From Deltaproteobacteria bacterium (GTDB lineage Bacteria > Bdellovibrionota > Bdellovibrionia > Bdellovibrionales > Bdellovibrionaceae), in the NCBI GenBank assembly GCA_017302835.1, contig JAFLCC010000001.1, forward strand, positions 310,001 through 374,000: a DNA stretch of 64,000 bases, given 5' to 3'. The notes beneath the pieces were generated by a model. It was not told where the DNA came from. It did no database searches and saw only the letters and a program-made list of their open reading frames with translations. A program made the translations under genes and the position numbers. This document shows, piece after piece, positions 812-11,996 of this stretch. Each line of letters begins with the position of its first letter. Position 1 is the stretch's first letter.

Positions 812-2233
812 CTAAGGTTGAGTGTTCATATCTTCAAGGTCTACTTCGACTTCAAGTTCTTTCACAATTGGTTTCCAAATATAAACCTCTTTCACTTGCC
901 CATGGTAACCCTTGTTCATGTAATCTATTAGCGTTGGATCTCCAGAAATAATAAAATTTCCATTTTTAAGTACGGTCAAATATCGATTCATCCCAATCAT
1001 TTTATCTTGCAGTTTATGCGGAGTGAAGTCTCCAGTTCCATCTTTGGAGAGGATGTAAACTTTGGCCTGATTGTTATTTACAACTAAGTTTCCATTCGGA
1101 AGTTCACGCGCATTCCATACAAAGCCCCCTAGAAATATATTTTGTTGGTTGAGGTATTGATTTGTTTTTGGATCGAGTTCCCAAATACGAACATGACCAT
1201 CATAGCCGGCGGTAGCTATGCGTCCATCTTTTAGAAGCTCAACGCTAGAAATCTTGCCGCTTCCAGGCGGGTTCTGAAATTTGTATTGGTACACATGAGT
1301 TTGCCGTTGCTGATCCCAGCGATAGTATTCGAGCCGGCCAGAGTAGTCCCCCGTCACGAAATCGTTGTTAGGAAAAACCGCAATGTCCATGATGCCAGCC
1401 GTACCTGGTTGAATGGCACCTTTGTGCTGTGTTGAGATGTAGGTGTATGTTCCTCCCTGGTTAGGTACCGACGATTCTGTAAATATAAGTAATTCCCCGT
1501 CATTGTCACCCAATATCGCGCGACCATTTGGTAACGCTTTTAGTGGCCCAACAAGAGTTCCTGGGAATACCACGGCTGTAGGCCGCACACTCGGATTCAT
1601 TGGGATGAACATCATGGCATTTTTATTGTTGGTGGTTGTGTAGTATACAATTGTCCCACTGGTTAGTTCAGCGAAAGGCCCCTGAACAGAACCAGGAGTT
1701 TTTGATAAGTGACTGTAGTATTCGAATGAACCATTGGGTTTAGGTTTCAAGAATTCACTTTTACCATATCGAGTTTCTGCTAACAACCGTCCACTTTGCA
1801 ATTCAAAAATTTGATCGGGATTTTGTTCAAAGAGATCTCCGATGTCGTGTACTGGTTCGTATAGCTCGGATTCGACTACTATTTTTTCAATGCGCTTTAG
1901 GGGAATTCTAGGTTTCGGTTTTTCTTCTTTCTCAATTTTAGGTTCTGGGCGATTTTGAATTTCTTTGATTTTTGCTTTTAAAATTCCATCAAATCCAGGG
2001 ACTAGCTTTTTCAAGCTGCGCATTTCCACTTGAATGGATGGGTTCATAAAAATAGCAGTGATCGGCGTGCTGGTCGATTTCGCCATTTCGGCGATGCGTT
2101 CTGCTAAATTTTGGATCGCAGCTTCATTGGTTTGAGTCGCACCGAAGCGGTAGTAAGAGCGACAGCTATTCGCATGCACGACGTTTCCATTCCACAATAA
2201 GGTTGCGACAAGGATTATCGCTAGAGGCTTCAT
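812..2233 (-). CDS. Exported beta-propeller (WD40-like) protein, last gene of the vWA operon
   Basis: 473 residues. Residues 1-21 form a signal peptide ending VHA, followed by NSCRSYY: Cys24-x-x-Tyr-Tyr, the motif shared by all five proteins of this locus. Residues about 25-110 are helical, then a Lys/Pro/Glu-rich linker, then a propeller-like region from about 150 to the end. The propeller region repeats phrases such as ELLKDGRIATAGYDGHVRIW and LPNGNLVVNNN, typical of WD40 or related blades. No catalytic residues are visible; a scaffold or binding role is inferred. Its start overlaps the upstream gene by 4 bases (2230-2233), indicating translational coupling. The C terminus is acidic. Confidence 0.8.
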   Translation of the reverse strand: MKPLAIILVATLLWNGNVVHANSCRSYYRFGATQTNEAAIQNLAERIAEMAKSTSTPITAIFMNPSIQVEMRSLKKLVPGFDGILKAKIKEIQNRPEPKIEKEEKPKPRIPLKRIEKIVVESELYEPVHDIGDLFEQNPDQIFELQSGRLLAETRYGKSEFLKPKPNGSFEYYSHLSKTPGSVQGPFAELTSGTIVYYTTTNNKNAMMFIPMNPSVRPTAVVFPGTLVGPLKALPNGRAILGDNDGELLIFTESSVPNQGGTYTYISTQHKGAIQPGTAGIMDIAVFPNNDFVTGDYSGRLEYYRWDQQRQTHVYQYKFQNPPGSGKISSVELLKDGRIATAGYDGHVRIWELDPKTNQYLNQQNIFLGGFVWNARELPNGNLVVNNNQAKVYILSKDGTGDFTPHKLQDKMIGMNRYLTVLKNGNFIISGDPTLIDYMNKGYHGQVKEVYIWKPIVKELEVEVDLEDMNTQP

Positions 2234-3777
2234 GGGTTCTCCTCGTCTAAAATTCCTACTTCTAATTTGCTTTTAGACCACTCAGTCGAAATAAAATTAC
2301 TACTAGCGTATTGGGCGTTTACAATCACACGCGTGCCGTTTGAAAAACCATAGTATTTTGCAAAATGTTGGGCTCTAGTCGATGATGTGCTTTTATACTG
2401 GAGCTTGCCGTTGAAATCTTTATCTAAAAAGATAACACCTTGCTCGAAAGTGGAAATAGCGAAACCGGCATCTGGCGTAGGTGTTAGTTTAGATGCGGAC
2501 CTAATTGTCTGCGCATGATGGCAAGAATCTATTTCAATGAATTCAAATAAATCAGGGGGTGTGAGGGGAGCTGGCGGTTTCTTTTTTAGGAACGAAAAAA
2601 GTCCACCACCATGGGACTCCTGAGGCTTCGGAGGAATTGGTTTGATTACAAATGTTTTTACTTCGCCTGTTCGATAAAGTGCGTAGATCATTCCGTGTCC
2701 ATCTCTGTGCACATCGACTATTTCAGTGGTCGCAGAATCAGTAATATGACCGGCCTGCTCATACTGGTGAGTCTTTGTGTCGAAATGCCAATATTGAATA
2801 ACGTTATCGTTATACATATTCAGCTTTTGTTTTTCATAGTTAGTTATTGTATGATGAGCGATAAAATCGCCATTGGGAATCGGATGAATGGAATTCAGAT
2901 TTTCACGAGCATATGGGCTCCATTCACGTCGTTGAAAATTTTCAGTAATGGAATCTGTCAATGGTGAATAAATTCGAATTTTTCCATGCACCATCGATAC
3001 AGCTACTAAACCATTAGCAAGGGCAGTTAGCTTAGATATATGGCTTTGACCCCTCATCGATTCTACCAAAGTATCGATATAAACTTTAGACTTAACAAAT
3101 CGATTCCCACTTTGTACTACAATATACTGCTCATTTCCAGTTTCTACTTGCAGTATCACTCCGCCGTTGAATCCTGGTCTGACATCGGCAATTTCTTTTT
3201 CTTGAAATGGAAAGGGATTATATGCAGGGATTAGTCGACCATTGATATCGAAAGTAAAGAAAGCGGCCACGCGGTCTGGCATCCTAGAAAATACAAGGGA
3301 TGGATTTACTTCAACAAAATCCGGATTCAAACGAGTCAGGTTCGAAATGTCATTTTCGACCTCAGCTCCCTCAACGAGGACTTTTCTTGGTTTAGGTTTG
3401 ATTGGCGGATTAATTTGATCTTTCTTGACTTGTGTTTCATGGGGTGCTGGTCTATCAGCGGTTTTATTTATCGTGACAACAAAAGGTTTCTTGGCTTGTT
3501 CTATTCGCGTATTGATTAAGGATTTTACTTGGGCCGTGCTGATACCTTGCGAGTTCGCAGAAGATATAAGTTTTATGATTTTTACGTCACTCAAAATCTG
3601 CGATGTCGTTAATTTAACATTTGGATCAATTATTTCGATCTGCGCCGCAATGGCCTTTAGCATGGATTTGCCGCCACCATACACCTGGATGCATTCATTG
3701 GCATTGGCCATTAACGTCGATGAAGAAAGGTAAATGGAGCCAGCGGTTAAGAAAATTATAAATATTCGATTTTTCAT
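2230..3777 (-). CDS. Exported beta-propeller-like protein, third gene of the vWA operon
   Basis: 515 residues with a signal peptide (residues 1-26, ending LMANA) and then NECIQVY, so Cys29-x-x-Val-Tyr33 matches the locus motif. A helical N-terminal domain of about 80 residues is followed by a Pro/Lys linker (PPIKPKPRK) and a beta-rich region with propeller-like repeats (ANGLVAVSMVHGKIRIYSP, PNGDFIAHHTI). It is weaker in canonical WD dipeptides than its neighbours, so the propeller assignment is by analogy. It overlaps genes on both sides by 4 bases. It is probably a diverged paralogue of the genes at 812 and 7001. Confidence 0.78.
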   Translation of the reverse strand: MKNRIFIIFLTAGSIYLSSSTLMANANECIQVYGGGKSMLKAIAAQIEIIDPNVKLTTSQILSDVKIIKLISSANSQGISTAQVKSLINTRIEQAKKPFVVTINKTADRPAPHETQVKKDQINPPIKPKPRKVLVEGAEVENDISNLTRLNPDFVEVNPSLVFSRMPDRVAAFFTFDINGRLIPAYNPFPFQEKEIADVRPGFNGGVILQVETGNEQYIVVQSGNRFVKSKVYIDTLVESMRGQSHISKLTALANGLVAVSMVHGKIRIYSPLTDSITENFQRREWSPYARENLNSIHPIPNGDFIAHHTITNYEKQKLNMYNDNVIQYWHFDTKTHQYEQAGHITDSATTEIVDVHRDGHGMIYALYRTGEVKTFVIKPIPPKPQESHGGGLFSFLKKKPPAPLTPPDLFEFIEIDSCHHAQTIRSASKLTPTPDAGFAISTFEQGVIFLDKDFNGKLQYKSTSSTRAQHFAKYYGFSNGTRVIVNAQYASSNFISTEWSKSKLEVGILDEENP

Positions 3778-6700
3778 GGCTTCACAATCCTTATTATTTT
3801 AGTCAGCTGACTGAATTCGACGACAGAAAGTTCACTGAGGTCATTGCCGCCAAGCTGTAGAAAGTTTTTTAGTAATTCAGTTACAAAACCTATTTTTATA
3901 TCATCACCAATTGTTGAGTTTAATAGTACAGACTCAACTTCTAGTAACTCACTGATCAACATTGGATTGTTGGGGCTATCTTGTTTACGCTTCATCAAAG
4001 AAACTAAATGTGCTAAATCATTACCTGGAACGGACTCTTCCTTATCAGGAATACGCAGATTGTTGATTCGACTAATTATGCCGTGACCGAGGCTGCCTAT
4101 ACTTGGGTCAAAAACAAAAGCCTCAGGATCGAAATCGACTTTCTTTGCATCTTTCGCAAAGTTCTCCATCATCTCTGCCGTGATTTCCGTAACCATTGAT
4201 TTTGAGTTTTTGGTGTTAGTATATTGAACAATTTCCTCTAGCGTTGAATTTCGTCCGCCAAGGGCTACCAAATTAAACATAGTTTTTACATAGCTAGGAA
4301 GAGCATTGATTTCGTTGATAGTTTCTTGTTTATTTACGGAAGCGCCCCCATCGGTGAGCAAAATCATATTGGCGCGATTTAGTTTTAAGCGTTGGCTAAA
4401 GTCAGTGCTGGATGGATTGGATGCTTTGATGCTATCTTTGATCATTTTAAAATGGGTATCGAAACAAGCCTGAATATTTGTGCCGTCATTAGCTACTGTA
4501 GGGCGGGATAAATAATTTAGGACTTCTCGTTTTGCTTCCGCGGCTGTGGTTACTTGAATACCAGCATGGACCTCATTACCAAACGGAAATATAATAACTT
4601 TGTGGGTGTGATTTCCAAAGGGATCTTTTTCAGACAATGCTTTGTCGACAATAGCAGCAATGGCACTGGCTTGAACTTCTGCCGGTCGACCGTGCATAGA
4701 TCCGCTGATGTCGAAAAAGATGTTGGTATGTTTGCGTTCAATTGTACTTTGTGAGCCCGCCGTCGGATATTGCTGACGATATCCCATCATATATTGCTGA
4801 TCTTTCAAAAGATTATCGAGCAACATCAAAACCGGGTCCGGATTATACTGAATATCCAGGATCCAGCGTTCAAATTTCGCGACATCTTCAGGACGCGCTA
4901 AAACGATATCTTCATTACGATTCTTCAGTGTGTACGCACGCAAAATAGATTTAGCATAACGTAGTTTATGCTCGCGTTCGGCATTTAATAAGAAATTGAA
5001 GTGTTTGCCCACCAGGGAAGCTTGCATAATATTATTTAAACCACCATTTCTTAACGCCGTTACGAAGGCTTTTTGATCGACAGATCCTGCTTCTTCAACT
5101 TTAGGAAATTGATCGCGGATAATTTCTTTGATGATTTCGCCAGGCAGACCCTTCAGTACGGACTGAGTCAGCGCTTGTTCTTTTGCGCTTGGGTGATTTA
5201 GTTTTGAAAAATCATGCATAATAGATACGAGTTCGTCGTGAAGGCGCTGCTCATTAACGGTTAATTCGCGCAAATTACCGATTTCAGAAATAAAATCTTT
5301 TACCGCCTTTAAATAGCGATAGGAAATTGTAGGATCTGAGTGAATTTGAGCTTTTGCTTCTGTCAGTAACTCAACTAAAGTTCCTTCTTTCATTCCGTAC
5401 ATTCGCGACGTTAATGTTTGTAAGTCTGATTTGGCTTTCTTGTTTTGCATCGTCAGGGCGTGGTGATTGATAAGGTAGCCGTCAAGAAGAGCCTCTAGCC
5501 CGTTCCATTTAATAAGTCGAACTACGGGCCCTAAAGTGTTTAGCAACATTTGACGCACAAGCAGTCCCAATGGTGTTTTATATCCTGGAGGGACTTTACT
5601 ATATTTTGGTTTCGGCGGTGGTTTAGCCAGGTCTTTCGGTTTTTCTTTTTCTGGCATTTCTAGAAGATTTTGTGCTGCTTTCTTTTGGTCTTTTGGTGGC
5701 AGCGGCGGTTTCTGTTCTTTAGTTTGTTGTGTCTGCTGTTCTGGCGTTTCTTCGACTTCATTTTCTTCTTCAAGTTCTTCTTTGTTGTTTTTCTCTAGCT
5801 CAGGATTTTTTCGTGTGGGGGTAAAATCGTAAGAAACCCATTCGTCACCGATAAATACTTCGACCCAAGCATGGCGAGGTAGTGAGTAGTCTGCAACGTT
5901 ATAATTCTGGCCATCGATATCTTTTTTGCCGGAGGTTCTTCGACCATCTACTATGCGCGTGGGAATTCCAAAAAAGTCTCGTAGCAACGTCGCACCGATT
6001 TGGGCGCCACCATCACAGTTGAACTCTTTCATAACTGCCATCTCTAGGATCGTGTCTGCTGGTTTTTGGCCGTTCTCTGAAAAGTATTTATAGGGGCCGT
6101 CGGTTGTGATCCAGCTTGATAATATTTCAGATATTGCAGCAATGTCGCCGCCACTATTGTCTTGCGCTTTTTTGACACCATCTAGAATGTGCGCGGGCCA
6201 TTGATTTTGGCGTATTTTACTTTTCTTAGTTAGAATTGTTTTTTGAATCTCAGATAGGTGTTTACCCTTGCTTGTTTCAAGTTCTAAGATCATTTTTTCT
6301 GGCAGTGGTTTGCCGTTTAGGCTTTCGACCAGATACTCGCCCATCGCCGGCTGAAAGACGCGAAAATCCGTATAGGTTTTTACAACGGGCATGCTCCCAT
6401 AAGCGACAGGAACGACCGCCGTACTAGCGGCCAGGGGGTTCACCAAGACACTTTGATGGCGCTTTCCTGGTAGGGGGGGGCTGGATGTCGTGTTAACTTC
6501 AGTCGTTCTTGCGGAAGGATCTTTTCTCCAACCATCATCATCGAAGGTATCAAAGATTTCTTCACGAACACGTTTTTCAGGAACTGGGGCCGTTGTTCCG
6601 AATAAATAACTGGAATGTGGTTTTTTCATTGCTTCGCTGATATCTTTGTTTTTTGCTTTGTACTCTTCATTACGCTTTTCCTTAAGGCCGTCTTGTTTTT

Positions 6701-7004
6701 CTTCAGGTGGCGGTGGTGATTTTTTCACAGAGCTCTGCTCTTGCAAGCTTTGCTTGCTTTCACCTTGTGGACGCTGAACTGTATTTTGCGGGCGATGGGG
6801 CGTTGCTTGCACAGGCTTTTGCTTTTTTCGAAATAAACCTTTGATGTAGTTTACGACTTTTTCGACTGCACTCATTGGTGGTGGTGGAGGAGGTGGTGGC
6901 GAGGCTTGGTAAAACAGTGGGCAAGACTCATCGGCCATAGCCGGCGTCAGGCTAGCTGTGCCGAAAATGAAAACAGATATCAATAGAAGTAGATTTTTAA
7001 TCAT
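3774..7004 (-). CDS. Exported transglutaminase-like / von Willebrand A fusion protein
   Basis: About 1076 residues. I prefer the ATG at 7004 (ATGA overlap with the upstream stop, as at the other two junctions) over the in-frame ATG at 7019. A signal peptide ending AMA is followed by DESCPLFY (locus motif), eight prolines and a long charged low-complexity linker. A transglutaminase-like core follows, with Cys330 (NCDGGA), His378 (RHAWVEV) and Asp393 (YDFTPT), the expected triad. After another Pro/Glu/Gln linker and a helical region comes a vWA domain with MIDAS residues Asp765-x-Ser-x-Ser (DISGSM), a Thr (NDGTNIQ) and an Asp (LLTDGGAS). MoxR ATPases normally act on vWA partners, and such an ATPase lies divergently upstream. 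The substrate of the transglutaminase-like part is unknown; it could be a protease, amidase or transglutaminase. Confidence 0.85.
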   Translation of the reverse strand: MIKNLLLLISVFIFGTASLTPAMADESCPLFYQASPPPPPPPPMSAVEKVVNYIKGLFRKKQKPVQATPHRPQNTVQRPQGESKQSLQEQSSVKKSPPPPEEKQDGLKEKRNEEYKAKNKDISEAMKKPHSSYLFGTTAPVPEKRVREEIFDTFDDDGWRKDPSARTTEVNTTSSPPLPGKRHQSVLVNPLAASTAVVPVAYGSMPVVKTYTDFRVFQPAMGEYLVESLNGKPLPEKMILELETSKGKHLSEIQKTILTKKSKIRQNQWPAHILDGVKKAQDNSGGDIAAISEILSSWITTDGPYKYFSENGQKPADTILEMAVMKEFNCDGGAQIGATLLRDFFGIPTRIVDGRRTSGKKDIDGQNYNVADYSLPRHAWVEVFIGDEWVSYDFTPTRKNPELEKNNKEELEEENEVEETPEQQTQQTKEQKPPLPPKDQKKAAQNLLEMPEKEKPKDLAKPPPKPKYSKVPPGYKTPLGLLVRQMLLNTLGPVVRLIKWNGLEALLDGYLINHHALTMQNKKAKSDLQTLTSRMYGMKEGTLVELLTEAKAQIHSDPTISYRYLKAVKDFISEIGNLRELTVNEQRLHDELVSIMHDFSKLNHPSAKEQALTQSVLKGLPGEIIKEIIRDQFPKVEEAGSVDQKAFVTALRNGGLNNIMQASLVGKHFNFLLNAEREHKLRYAKSILRAYTLKNRNEDIVLARPEDVAKFERWILDIQYNPDPVLMLLDNLLKDQQYMMGYRQQYPTAGSQSTIERKHTNIFFDISGSMHGRPAEVQASAIAAIVDKALSEKDPFGNHTHKVIIFPFGNEVHAGIQVTTAAEAKREVLNYLSRPTVANDGTNIQACFDTHFKMIKDSIKASNPSSTDFSQRLKLNRANMILLTDGGASVNKQETINEINALPSYVKTMFNLVALGGRNSTLEEIVQYTNTKNSKSMVTEITAEMMENFAKDAKKVDFDPEAFVFDPSIGSLGHGIISRINNLRIPDKEESVPGNDLAHLVSLMKRKQDSPNNPMLISELLEVESVLLNSTIGDDIKIGFVTELLKNFLQLGGNDLSELSVVEFSQLTKIIRIVKP

Positions 7005-8473
7005 GGTTTTCGTGTCCATAACCAGTAGTTTTTAATTCCGGCGGTGTAGAAGCCGCCGTGTTGCAAAGGTAAAATAAAAGCACCTGGTCCTTCGCCCCGT
7101 GCTACTGTCGGTATTCTTGTTGTTGCAGAGATTTTTCCGGAACTGTCAATTCGATATAGAGGAAGTGTTTCGTCGCCACGCATTGTGTTTACCAATATCT
7201 GTCCGTCAGCTAAAACTTCCAGACTTTTAATCCAAACATTACCTGCATTTTTAACATTTTCAGTAGCGATAAGTGATAAATTTCCGTTATCCCATTTCCA
7301 GGTTTTAACTAATCCTCGATATTCCGCGGTGACCAAAATCCCACCAGGCAGCATTTTCATACCGTTAATTCTGGGCACGAATGATCCAGTCATATAGCTC
7401 ATTCGGTCAGGGTAAGTATACGTCCCAGTATCAAAAACTCGTCCAGGTTGGTAGGTACCATCAGATTGGCGTACCCAATGTTGAATCACTGAAAGCTGTA
7501 TGTATGGATCTTGTGCTCCTTCCAGCAGCCGTGGACCTAATTCAAATGCGACTAGCAAGTCTCTATCAGGAAGAACAAGGAGTTCACTGACAGAAGATGT
7601 TATGTTTGGAGCTGGAGTACTTGGCGCATAATCATATTCTTTACTGATTGCGCCTGTAGTTCGGTCTAAAATAATAAATGGGCCTCCACTTTTATCTATC
7701 ACAACAAAATGTTGAGTGGATATGGGAACAACTTCCGTTTGGTTACGATATTTGCGCAAATCGATATGGGTAAACGTATTGGGATCTAAATTATTTGGAT
7801 TTAAAATTGTAAGCTGTTTATGTCCGCTGGAATCCAAAGTCATCACGGCCACCAAATCAGAATTCACTAGTTTTGGTTTTGAGACTGAGATAAATGTGGC
7901 GGATATTTTATCGATCTCGTTATATCGGATATCTCCCATGCCATCAAGAATGGGAGCCAGTCGTTTAATTTCTTGAGGTATATTGGGATTTCCTTCCGGC
8001 AGTGACAAAATATCGCCATCGGCAAGCTCCACCATATAATATCCAAGACTTTCGGAAAGTTCTTTTTTAGAAAACTCTCCCCTACGAAGTGGAATTTTTT
8101 GAGCGATATTGGATCGAGCTTCAAACTGATTTCCATAATCAACGGGGGGTTTGTTCTGCAAACTTAGGCGCTGAAAAGTTTCTTCCATACTTTCAGTACC
8201 AGGAATCGATTTCGCATTGCCATTAAGAAGATCTTTCAGCTTCTTCATAAAATTGGGATCCGCTCTCTTTCCAGCTATAATCATATTCGCAAAAAGCGGA
8301 GATTGGATCAGGGCAATCGCAGCGGCACGTGATCCGTTGGCTCCAGCTAAAATTGCTGCTGCGACACCGTGAACTGTAGAGAACTTACTGGTGTAGATTG
8401 CACCACAGGTATCGTTCGCTAAAACGGAAAGGTTTAGGCTCAAACTTAAAATTAAAATGTGTTTTAGATTCAT
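7001..8473 (-). CDS. Exported beta-propeller-like protein, first gene of the vWA operon
   Basis: 490 residues from the ATG at 8473, which follows GAGG and starts a clean signal peptide (ending SVLA). An upstream in-frame start at 8521 would add a non-hydrophobic leader and is rejected. The mature end is NDTCGAIY (Cys23-x-x-Ile-Tyr27). An N-terminal helical domain of about 80 residues is followed by a beta-rich region with repeats of the type LPDRDLLVAFELG, LPGGILVTAEYRGLVKTWKW and LADGQILVNTMRG, consistent with a six- or seven-bladed propeller. It leads the operon; its stop overlaps the start of the transglutaminase/vWA gene by 4 bases. Confidence 0.8.
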   Translation of the reverse strand: MNLKHILILSLSLNLSVLANDTCGAIYTSKFSTVHGVAAAILAGANGSRAAAIALIQSPLFANMIIAGKRADPNFMKKLKDLLNGNAKSIPGTESMEETFQRLSLQNKPPVDYGNQFEARSNIAQKIPLRRGEFSKKELSESLGYYMVELADGDILSLPEGNPNIPQEIKRLAPILDGMGDIRYNEIDKISATFISVSKPKLVNSDLVAVMTLDSSGHKQLTILNPNNLDPNTFTHIDLRKYRNQTEVVPISTQHFVVIDKSGGPFIILDRTTGAISKEYDYAPSTPAPNITSSVSELLVLPDRDLLVAFELGPRLLEGAQDPYIQLSVIQHWVRQSDGTYQPGRVFDTGTYTYPDRMSYMTGSFVPRINGMKMLPGGILVTAEYRGLVKTWKWDNGNLSLIATENVKNAGNVWIKSLEVLADGQILVNTMRGDETLPLYRIDSSGKISATTRIPTVARGEGPGAFILPLQHGGFYTAGIKNYWLWTRKP

Positions 8474-8645: not shown

Positions 8646-8699
8646 GTGAGCATAGAACTTGCTTTAATCGTCTTCCGTGGTCTTTTTACCGGAGGATAT

Positions 8700-11600
8700 G
8701 TGCGTCTTTTAAATATATTATTTTCGACGGTTCTTGCAATTCCGCTGGTTCAAGGTGGCGAGTATAAGTGCTATAAAGTCTATTCCAGAAAAAAAGTTAC
8801 TATTATTAAGACAAAAATGCGCGTTGAAAAAAATGTGTTAGCAACGAAAACAAACGCTGCGTGGGAGATTTCACGTGCGGGAATCGCTGAACTAAACACA
8901 AAACTTTATTCTATGGAGAACCTACTTTATTATCTAGGTACTGGTTTGATCGCCAAAGAAAATATTTTGTCTGATGGTGGTGGCGGTGGCGGTAAGACAT
9001 TCGCCATGCGAGAATTTTTTGAATCACAACTACGAGCTGTGAAAGGAGAAACTCAAGATGCCAGAAATCGTTGGAACGTTGATTTGGTTAAATTCATCGA
9101 TGAAATGAATAGGATTATTGACGAAGAGAAAAGATACATAAAAGATGCCGACAAACGATTGTTTACGATCCAATTCCATCAGTTATTAAGTGAAACGTCT
9201 TTGCTGGGTGGACCCAATCCAATCAAGTTTGTAAAAGAAGGTATTTACGAAGTCGATTACAGTCGCGCCTTGATTGCCGAGAAAAATATGTTTGCGATCC
9301 TCGATGAAATCGAAAAAGCCCCACCCAGTTTGCAAATGACATTACTTTCAATCCTGAATGAGCGTCAGGCATTAGCTGGAAACAAAGTTGTTCAAACAAT
9401 GTTAGAATCCATTGCCGGAACAACTAATAAAACATTAGGTCAAATGGTTTCACAAGCGGATCCTCATGAAATCGGTGGACGAATGGCCTACCTAGATCGC
9501 TTTGCGCTAAAGTTCCATTTGGTATACACGGGACATAGTGCAACTGATAATTATCTATTCGTCGAAAACTTAGAAGCCAATAGCAGCGAAAAACGATACA
9601 CGATTATCGATTTGCGCGGCATTCGCCCGCTGGCCGACAATGTTGAAATTTCGAAAGAATTAATTTCTTCAGCGGTCGATGTTGTGACCGAAATGGATCT
9701 TGCGTACAGTCAGCATTTAAAAGAGTTGCAGTCGGCGATAGAAGATCCAGCCAAACAACCTTCTTTTTATCCTCCCTACTCGGGATCGAATCGTGCCAAT
9801 TCTAAAGTTATTAAGATGTGGCAAGCCGCATTTATTATGCGCCAGTTAATTAACGGTGTTGCTTATGAATCGGTAAATTTAAAAATGTCAGCTAAAGATT
9901 TAGTAGATTTAGCTCCGGTTGTTTTACAAGGCGGACCCGATACTTTTCAGTCGGCCCATAGTATTAAGTTAGGATTTTTACAATATAAATATATTGGAGA
10001 ATCTGAAGAGGGCTTACCGATACCAAAAAGTGAAAAGATCGTTGTAGCCAAATCTAACGTTGATGTAACTACGGCGGCCTTCAGGAATAAAGACATCTAT
10101 GCAGAGAATTCAATTTCGACGGGTTACTATGACCCTTCGACAGAAATGTTTACTTATAAATCATTAAATCACGGGCAGATTCGAAAGGTTCATTTCGATG
10201 TCAAAAAAGGAAAACTAAATATACCAAATGAAGTCATCGCAGATGAGCTGGGTGTAGGGCTAGATCTAGATAATGTTTTTTTTGACGGAAATGAATCCCT
10301 TGCAAGACGATTAGCTGATCTAAATAGTCGACTTTCAAAGATTCATGTGAACGCGGTTCGCGGGGGCAAAGATAAGAATGAAACTGGATTTGTTCTTTCA
10401 GGAATCATCGAGGAATACTTAAAGCCAAATAGTCAGGCCGCGATTATAAAAGAAGCCAAAGAACAATTGGCAGAAATTAAAAAGTTCCATGAACGATTTC
10501 GCTCGATTATTAATCCTAAAATTAAAGAGCTAAGTACGGTTTCAATGTCTGAAGTTGATGTTTCTGTAGATATTAAGCAGGATAAAGAATTCTTTGATAG
10601 AGCCACCAAGTTATCGAGCGAATTAGAAGATGCTTTAGATCAGAAAAATTCAGATAAGGTTTTGGATATTGCGATTCAATCAGTTCGATTGGGTTTTGAA
10701 GAGATGACATTCTGGTTTAAAAACTCGGGCAGCACTGTCGCAGGGATGTTCAAAGGGATTTCCTCACGAAGAAACGTTATGCTTTTTGGTCCTCATGGAT
10801 CAGCAAAAACAATGATGTCGCGAATGATATTAGAACGCGAACTCGAAGGCATTTCCGAGATGCAGATTGCAAAAGCCAATGCACTACTGGCTCATGTGTT
10901 ACCTCATGGAGTTAAAGGCAAGGGTTCGGTATGGATTAAACAATTCCATCCCATGTCGACCGAAGGTGATATCGTAGGTCGTCTTGATTTGAAGGCCATG
11001 GAAGAAGGCCGTGGATATACATATAATCGAACGGGCAGCTTGGCCGCGAAAGACGTTTTTTTTGCCTTATTGGATGAATTTGAAAAAGCCCCCCCAGGAG
11101 TAAAAACGGCATTGTTGTCCTTGATGAATGAGCGCGAAGTTTTAGGTGGAGAGGAAAAAGAGGTATCAAATATTATTTCGATGGTGATCACGACGAATTC
11201 GACCCCGAGCGAATTCTTGATTAGCCAGGGTGATTTTTCGACGGGAGCACCGATCTTTGACCGTATTCAACAGAAAGCGTATGTTTTCAACAAAATGGAC
11301 AAAGCGGATTTGAATTCATTTCTATCCCGATTGTATGCGGGTATCATGCCTCGCTTACACAGTCCTTTGATGTTGTCGCAGATTGGACTGTTGGAGAAAT
11401 ATTTCCGCATCGGTGATGCCGATAAAATGCTTCTTCATGAAATCAATGTCGAGTTTTTGAAGATCGTAAAAGATCGTTCAGAGGCAGAACGTGAACTCCA
11501 TAACGGCCAGCGCGACCTGTACCCCACTTATTTTATGAATACGCATGGGGAAAGTCGTCGTACCTTAGGATCCACATTTTTGAAAGAATTGGGAATTACG

Positions 11601-11996
11601 GTGCAAATGAATCGAGTACTCAAGGGCGAGTCGACTCAAAGTTTTAAAGAACAATACGTGTTTGATCTTAAAGACATCGAATCATTTGCAGAAATGTATA
11701 TGACAGCAAACTTCGCATTCGCAGTTAAAGCGCGCTACAATTCAGACGGTGTCCTTTATTTCGTGGTCGAGAAAAAAAGCACTTCTGGGATCGAAGATCG
11801 CATCAGCAACCGCGAAAAAGAAACTCTCTCTCACATGGAATGGGAAGCTACTCAAATGGCAAATATCATCAATGTCAAACTCAAAGCCTTGATGGCCAAC
11901 AAAGAACGCATAGAAATCATGAAACAATTCCCAAAACGCTACCGAACCCTATTCCAAACCGAAGACCAAAGAAAAGCCTGGCTGGACAAACACTAG
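8700..11996 (+). CDS. Tandem MoxR/RavA-like AAA+ ATPase with signal-like N terminus
   Basis: About 1098 residues from the GTG at 8700, which sits four bases after GGAGG. A GTG at 8646 is in frame but lacks a ribosome site. The chosen start gives MRLLNILFSTVLAIPLVQGG, a signal-peptide or anchor-like segment, then EYKCYKVY (Cys24-x-x-Val-Tyr28) as in the four divergent genes. Two AAA modules follow. The first has Walker A GGGGGGKT (Lys99) and Walker B FAILDEIEKAPP near residue 200. The second has Walker A GPHGSAKT near 700 and Walker B FFALLDEFEKAPP near 787. LNERQ and MNERE after each Walker B are typical of MoxR proteins. The family remodels vWA partners; the likely partner is the transglutaminase/vWA protein. 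Whether the ATPase faces the periplasm or the cytoplasm is unresolved, because many Lys/Arg follow the hydrophobic segment and favour a cytoplasmic side. Confidence 0.85.
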   Translation: MRLLNILFSTVLAIPLVQGGEYKCYKVYSRKKVTIIKTKMRVEKNVLATKTNAAWEISRAGIAELNTKLYSMENLLYYLGTGLIAKENILSDGGGGGGKTFAMREFFESQLRAVKGETQDARNRWNVDLVKFIDEMNRIIDEEKRYIKDADKRLFTIQFHQLLSETSLLGGPNPIKFVKEGIYEVDYSRALIAEKNMFAILDEIEKAPPSLQMTLLSILNERQALAGNKVVQTMLESIAGTTNKTLGQMVSQADPHEIGGRMAYLDRFALKFHLVYTGHSATDNYLFVENLEANSSEKRYTIIDLRGIRPLADNVEISKELISSAVDVVTEMDLAYSQHLKELQSAIEDPAKQPSFYPPYSGSNRANSKVIKMWQAAFIMRQLINGVAYESVNLKMSAKDLVDLAPVVLQGGPDTFQSAHSIKLGFLQYKYIGESEEGLPIPKSEKIVVAKSNVDVTTAAFRNKDIYAENSISTGYYDPSTEMFTYKSLNHGQIRKVHFDVKKGKLNIPNEVIADELGVGLDLDNVFFDGNESLARRLADLNSRLSKIHVNAVRGGKDKNETGFVLSGIIEEYLKPNSQAAIIKEAKEQLAEIKKFHERFRSIINPKIKELSTVSMSEVDVSVDIKQDKEFFDRATKLSSELEDALDQKNSDKVLDIAIQSVRLGFEEMTFWFKNSGSTVAGMFKGISSRRNVMLFGPHGSAKTMMSRMILERELEGISEMQIAKANALLAHVLPHGVKGKGSVWIKQFHPMSTEGDIVGRLDLKAMEEGRGYTYNRTGSLAAKDVFFALLDEFEKAPPGVKTALLSLMNEREVLGGEEKEVSNIISMVITTNSTPSEFLISQGDFSTGAPIFDRIQQKAYVFNKMDKADLNSFLSRLYAGIMPRLHSPLMLSQIGLLEKYFRIGDADKMLLHEINVEFLKIVKDRSEAERELHNGQRDLYPTYFMNTHGESRRTLGSTFLKELGITVQMNRVLKGESTQSFKEQYVFDLKDIESFAEMYMTANFAFAVKARYNSDGVLYFVVEKKSTSGIEDRISNREKETLSHMEWEATQMANIINVKLKALMANKERIEIMKQFPKRYRTLFQTEDQRKAWLDKH

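Follow-up and report, generated by a model that had tools for sequence, protein, structure and literature searches.

A tandem MoxR-type AAA+ ATPase and the proteins of a divergent operon next to it, all of them with predicted signal peptides and a short cysteine-containing tag behind these, were identified in a member of the Bdellovibrionaceae, which belongs to the predatory Bdellovibrio group. The analysed window comprised 64,000 nucleotides, and the features found in it are listed in Table 1. Judged from the sequences, export of this MoxR-vWA-propeller set is well supported, and the system is most aptly described as an exported variant of the MoxR-vWA-propeller machines.

Table 1. Positions of the ATPase gene, its motifs and the putative partner genes in the window.
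Feature	Position	Strand	Basis
473-aa WD40-type beta-propeller partner; predicted signal peptide and tag CRSYY; one Cys only	812..2233	-	
515-aa partner; predicted signal peptide and tag CIQVY; weak alignment to the propeller family	2230..3777	-	
1081-aa vWA/transglutaminase partner; predicted signal peptide and tag CPLFY (Cys33 invariant)	3774..7019	-	Pfam, alignment A2
490-aa partner, first gene of the operon, putatively propeller-like; predicted signal peptide and tag CGAIY; one Cys only	7001..8473	-	weak alignment to the 473-aa partner
Tandem MoxR-type (bpMoxR/AAA_5) AAA+ ATPase, 1098 aa; single Cys in the whole protein	8700..11996	+	Pfam and homologues
Signal-peptide-like segment MRLLNILFSTVLAIPLVQG	8700..8756	+	rule-predicted cleavage site; counterpart in all homologues
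N-terminal cysteine tag CYKVY	8769..8783	+	Cys24 invariant in the family alignment
AAA1 Walker A GGGGGGKT	8976..8999	+	
AAA1 Walker B FAILDEIEK	9291..9317	+	
AAA2 Walker A GPHGSAKT	10788..10811	+	
AAA2 Walker B FALLDEFEK	11061..11087	+	

A Shine-Dalgarno sequence (GGAGG, 8691-8695, plus strand) precedes the start codon GTG 8700 of the ATPase gene with a 4-base spacer (ATAT), and no purine-rich site was located upstream of GTG 8646. In the whole window, GGAGG occurs 4-14 bases before 21 of the 6,182 ATG, GTG or TTG triplets (0.34%). Read from 8700, the protein starts with V/MRLLNILFSTVLAIPLVQG, followed by GEYKCYKVYSRKK (the N terminus can also be written V/MRLLNILFSTVLAIPLVQGGEYKCYKVYSRKK). 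The paralogue (L002/L017, 51% identity) and other homologues possess N termini of the same kind, and the column of Cys24 is invariant, with the Cys24 region present in 8/8 homologues of alignment A1; the start at GTG 8700 is thereby backed independently. Both the preference of the first-pass annotation for this start over GTG 8646 and the short, hydrophobic, signal-like N terminus which it had described were therefore confirmed by sequence and homology, the latter being found in the homologues as well.

In total, 30 distinct members of the ATPase family were collected by a family search and by searching the order and the phylum with profiles. Signal segments were called by hydrophobicity and an A-x-A rule, and cleavage is thus a rule-based prediction. 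A signal-like N terminus was present in 30/30 members, 28 by rule and two (L074 and L077) by eye; for these two, in which the caller missed the start or took a wrong one, the segment was evident on inspection. By the same rules, an n-/h-/c-region signal peptide was found at the supported start of the window ATPase and is conserved in its homologues. The n-region of the window copy is minimal (one Arg, GTG start), and most homologues show positive n-regions, short h-regions, A-x-A-like sites and ordinary mature N termini. No signal segment was detected in four intact canonical (cytoplasmic) MoxR proteins from the same phylum; these served as the root of the AAA-domain tree. In all five window proteins, and in the module parts of other genomes at the loci examined, the signal-peptide-like segment is followed by the cysteine tag. 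Since every part carries an export signal and the same tag, it is implied that the machine works outside the cytoplasm.

The ATPase matched the Pfam families PF07728 (AAA_5, E 2.8e-19) and PF20030 (bpMoxR, E 9.4e-14), in both cases beyond the curated cutoff. Its bpMoxR score of 51.4 bits lies above the cutoff of 27, and the homologues reached E values of 1e-23 to 1e-30. The closest solved MoxR structures are those of RavA-ViaA (PDB 3nbx and 6szb; E 6e-19), and a structure model of the ATPase (AlphaFold, 8 alignment rows) was of low confidence (pLDDT 45) and uninformative. Every complete AAA domain of the family alignment has retained the Lys-[Thr/Ser] of Walker A, the Asp-Glu of Walker B, the sensor-1 Asn and the finger arginine, which follows D/N/S/A; sequence L021 ends before sensor 1 of AAA2. 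Due to this conservation, ATP use appears to be under selection in this MoxR family. Furthermore, an FGE-sulfatase domain is fused to two ATPases, and the ATPases of G030 and G046 have one segment in common with a tagged propeller protein of G002. These domain fusions support a functional unit. The two fused proteins are predicted exported MoxR ATPases with the FGE-sulfatase domain at the C terminus (L018:8045-12196(+) and L019:6884-11065(-), E 1e-27 to 1e-28), and such a domain serves as an effector in related ternary systems.

The four genes of the partner operon, which is located upstream of the ATPase gene and divergent from it, overlap by short stretches, and contig 5 of the window genome carries a second, paralogous module whose genes are divergent in the same way. 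The 1081-aa protein represents the adjacent vWA component; it possesses a MIDAS motif (DISGSM, 4695-4712) and a transglutaminase Cys335 with HAW. The motif D-x-S-G-S-M is invariant in alignment A2, as is Cys33, and across loci the vWA partners conserve D-x-S-x-S. Pfam revealed no propeller behind the vWA domain of this protein, where about 120 residues remain. The 473-aa protein gave WD40-like matches and models as a WD40 propeller (pLDDT 71; Foldseek match to WD40 propellers with a probability of 1.00). By inference from weak alignments to this protein (20-21% identity), the 490-aa and 515-aa partners may be propeller-like, too. In the propeller alignment A3, Cys24 and Tyr28 are invariant. 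The separate propeller proteins have a helical N-terminal region, and no TPR was found in them.

Very long low-complexity repeats occur in the vWA partners L022:6334-9957(-) (KDSKDS...) and L129:3821-8561(-), the latter being split over two overlapping frames, and a collagen-like repeat (PF01391, E 5e-8) occurs in the vWA/transglutaminase partner L024:5898-9767(+). Tagged repeat proteins are encoded on either side of the ATPase gene of the same locus (L024:3-719(-) and L024:4166-5647(-)); their repeat units are about 53-71% identical, and this high similarity suggests a recent expansion.

The tag typically has the form Cys-x-x-hydrophobic-[F/Y/L] and usually lies within a few residues of the signal segment. 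Its cysteine is present in 28/30 ATPases; the divergent L087 and L089 have no tag, and a few tags deviate (e.g. CSSSA in L074 and CDDEM in L088). Tyr is the last residue in the two modules of the window genome and in the congener G062; several other genomes have Phe, and others Leu. In 20 of 24 loci this residue is the same in the ATPase and in the vWA partner, against 8.2 expected (P<5e-5, statistics that ignore phylogeny). When shuffling was restricted to GC classes, 12.5 agreements were expected (P 2.5e-4, kinship likewise being ignored). The partners in this test were identified as vWA proteins by alignment A2 or a vWA profile, which matched in 10/10 loci tested, and a few by gene position only. 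This agreement suggests a shared docking partner, and a partner that is common to both proteins and co-evolves with the tag would be the simplest explanation.

A lipoprotein signal was considered for the tag and rejected, as a lipobox is missing and the tag cysteine usually lies 2-6 or more residues past the predicted cleavage site. The tag is also not a general feature of the secretome: outside the modules, it was found in 4/215 signal-peptide-like ORFs of a sample of about 0.8 Mb of the window genome. In genomes free of the module, a single-Cys tag occurred in 1/146 (G003, same family) and 1/96 (the congener G063) of such ORFs. The tag hence marks a small set of predicted exported proteins and is not strictly bound to the presence of a MoxR module. 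The four unrelated proteins of the window genome are L036:15584-16789(+) (CIQFY), L044:2-829(-) (CLASY), L112:240-1676(+) (CLDSY) and L118:836-2461(+) (CRDLY). Possibly, these single-Cys tagged, predicted exported proteins are additional clients or components of the system. A comparable predicted exported protein of G063 is L152:6871-7629(+) (CYQFY).

Apart from the tag, the ATPases are strongly depleted of cysteine. The bodies of the 30 family members, counted from the first AAA domain onward, contain 11 Cys in 23,814 residues (0.046%), compared to 11 in 1,275 residues (0.86%) in the four canonical cytoplasmic MoxR proteins of the phylum and 0.91% in non-exported ORFs of the window genome. 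In the body of the window ATPase, 9.6 Cys were expected and none is present (P 7e-5). In most family members the tag cysteine is the only one over 500-1,400 residues; L089 has six in its body. A cytoplasmic domain would not be expected to be so poor in cysteine; together with the export signals on every partner, the depletion points to an extracytoplasmic location. It would fit a protein with one functional thiol outside the cytoplasm.

Taken together, it is fairly probable that the whole machine is exported by Sec, docks by its tag and performs remodelling with ATP that does not stem from the periplasm of the producer. The tandem ATPase, the vWA/transglutaminase partner and several WD40-type or propeller-like proteins would be exported, and removal of the signal peptides would leave on each part the N-terminal tag, whose cysteine is (almost) the sole one of the protein. 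Via the tag, the parts might then dock either to one another or to an exported receptor which they share. Like the MoxR/vWA pairs of the cytoplasm, the ATPase ring would remodel a substrate, which would be held by the propellers and by the MIDAS of the vWA protein. Since no ATP is expected in the periplasm, the likeliest source would be the prey cell or its lysed contents. We infer cleavage, final location, ATP source, chemistry of the tag and target, and the site of action is probably in or on the prey.

To our knowledge, the bacterial periplasm is generally held to be devoid of ATP, and this counts against export, as do the GTG start and the minimal n-region of the window copy. The lack of ATP would pose no difficulty if the hydrophobic segment were an uncleaved N-out/C-in anchor, with the AAA domains at the cytoplasmic face of the inner membrane, where ATP is available to the conserved ATPase residues, and with the vWA and propeller proteins in the periplasm. 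The first-pass annotation had posed export and anchoring as the two options and leaned to an anchor because of the Lys and Arg residues behind the segment. Such basic residues are indeed present in both G000 copies, and the mature N terminus of the window ATPase is unusually basic (about +4 over the first 15 residues, a charge matched by about 1% of the signal-peptide-like proteins among the ORFs of the window genome). However, the basic flank is not common to the family, in which short h-regions, A-x-A-like sites and positive n-regions prevail, and the body cysteines are down to 0.046%. Moreover, the same signal and tag are found on the transglutaminase-vWA and propeller partners, which do not depend on ATP. 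The cysteine tag, the exported partner operon and the conservation across the family had escaped the first-pass annotation; with these, export is favoured and a membrane anchor is rather unlikely.

It could also be assumed that the exported protein has ceased to be an ATP-driven motor and is an assembly scaffold in the periplasm, binding nucleotide or nothing. The expected lack of periplasmic ATP and the divergent glycine run GGGGGGKT of AAA1 in the window copy would agree with this, but it is improbable, since about 30 diverged homologues conserve the Lys-[Thr/Ser] of Walker A, the Asp-Glu of Walker B and the Asn of sensor 1, and the tandem members do so in both domains. Finally, an in-frame ATG exists at 8817, and the first-pass annotation had noted that a start there would remove the hydrophobic segment. 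The protein would then be an ordinary cytoplasmic MoxR and the hydrophobic stretch a product of chance. This start would forfeit the Cys24 region, which all eight A1 homologues possess, and is at odds with the strong Shine-Dalgarno sequence before GTG 8700 and with the divergent family members, which likewise begin with signal and Cys; it is scarcely credible, being already contradicted by homology. Export of the complete machine remains the preferred reading.

MoxR ATPases remodel their targets together with vWA partners. The window system resembles the MoxR-vWA-beta-propeller (bpMoxR) ternary systems (Kaur et al. 2020, PMC7159879) in the bpMoxR AAA+ domain, the vWA partner gene and the propellers in one locus. 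It differs from them by the signal peptide and Cys tag on every part, by the transglutaminase domain of the vWA protein and by propellers encoded as separate genes instead of C-terminal fusions to the vWA protein. In subsystem 4 of that study, a C-terminal beta-propeller with about four blades is strictly present in the vWA component, and the third component consists of a variable N terminus, TPR and a propeller; the terms "signal peptide" and "Bdellovibrio" are absent from the main text (PMC7159879). The AAA+/vWA pairing is also known from RavA-ViaA, where RavA has one AAA domain and the window ATPase a tandem, and a related RavA/ViaA-type pair of Salinivibrio has no signal peptide, unlike the window system. 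Chaperones of the NorQ-NorD and CbbQ-CbbO type are similar in that a MoxR ATPase and a MIDAS partner remodel a target; NorQ and NorD are described as most likely cytosolic on the ground that signal peptides are missing from them (PMC9976466). With respect to the signal peptide, the window ATPase resembles the Torsins, which belong to another AAA clade. These AAA+ ATPases also possess a signal peptide and work in the lumen of the eukaryotic ER, which, unlike the periplasm, contains ATP. Among the papers searched, there were no reports of periplasmic, secreted or exported AAA+ proteins, nor any that combined Bdellovibrio with MoxR and the von Willebrand domain.

Regarding its distribution, most genomes of the genus Bdellovibrio searched do not possess the module (present in 1/24 in genus g4), and it is therefore not part of the core predation machinery. 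The homologue L003/L004 belongs to a record named Bdellovibrionaceae, the family of the window genome. A plasmid search beyond the phylum retrieved only distant MoxR/RavA-like proteins, and at two of its loci (Salinivibrio and Brevibacillus) neither ATPase nor partner has a signal peptide. Comparison with known defence-system models gave no meaningful match.

That an ATP-hydrolysing AAA+ machine is wholly exported and operates outside the cytoplasm, probably on prey ATP, assembled via an undescribed single-Cys N-terminal tag common to all its parts, is a tentative claim, possible rather than probable. AAA+ motors are assumed to depend on cytoplasmic ATP. A family of MoxR ATPases that are exported and yet conserve their catalytic residues would either break this assumption or draw its energy from another cell. 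The conserved single-Cys tag, which occurs on exported proteins without any other relationship, resembles a sorting or assembly signal of an undescribed kind.
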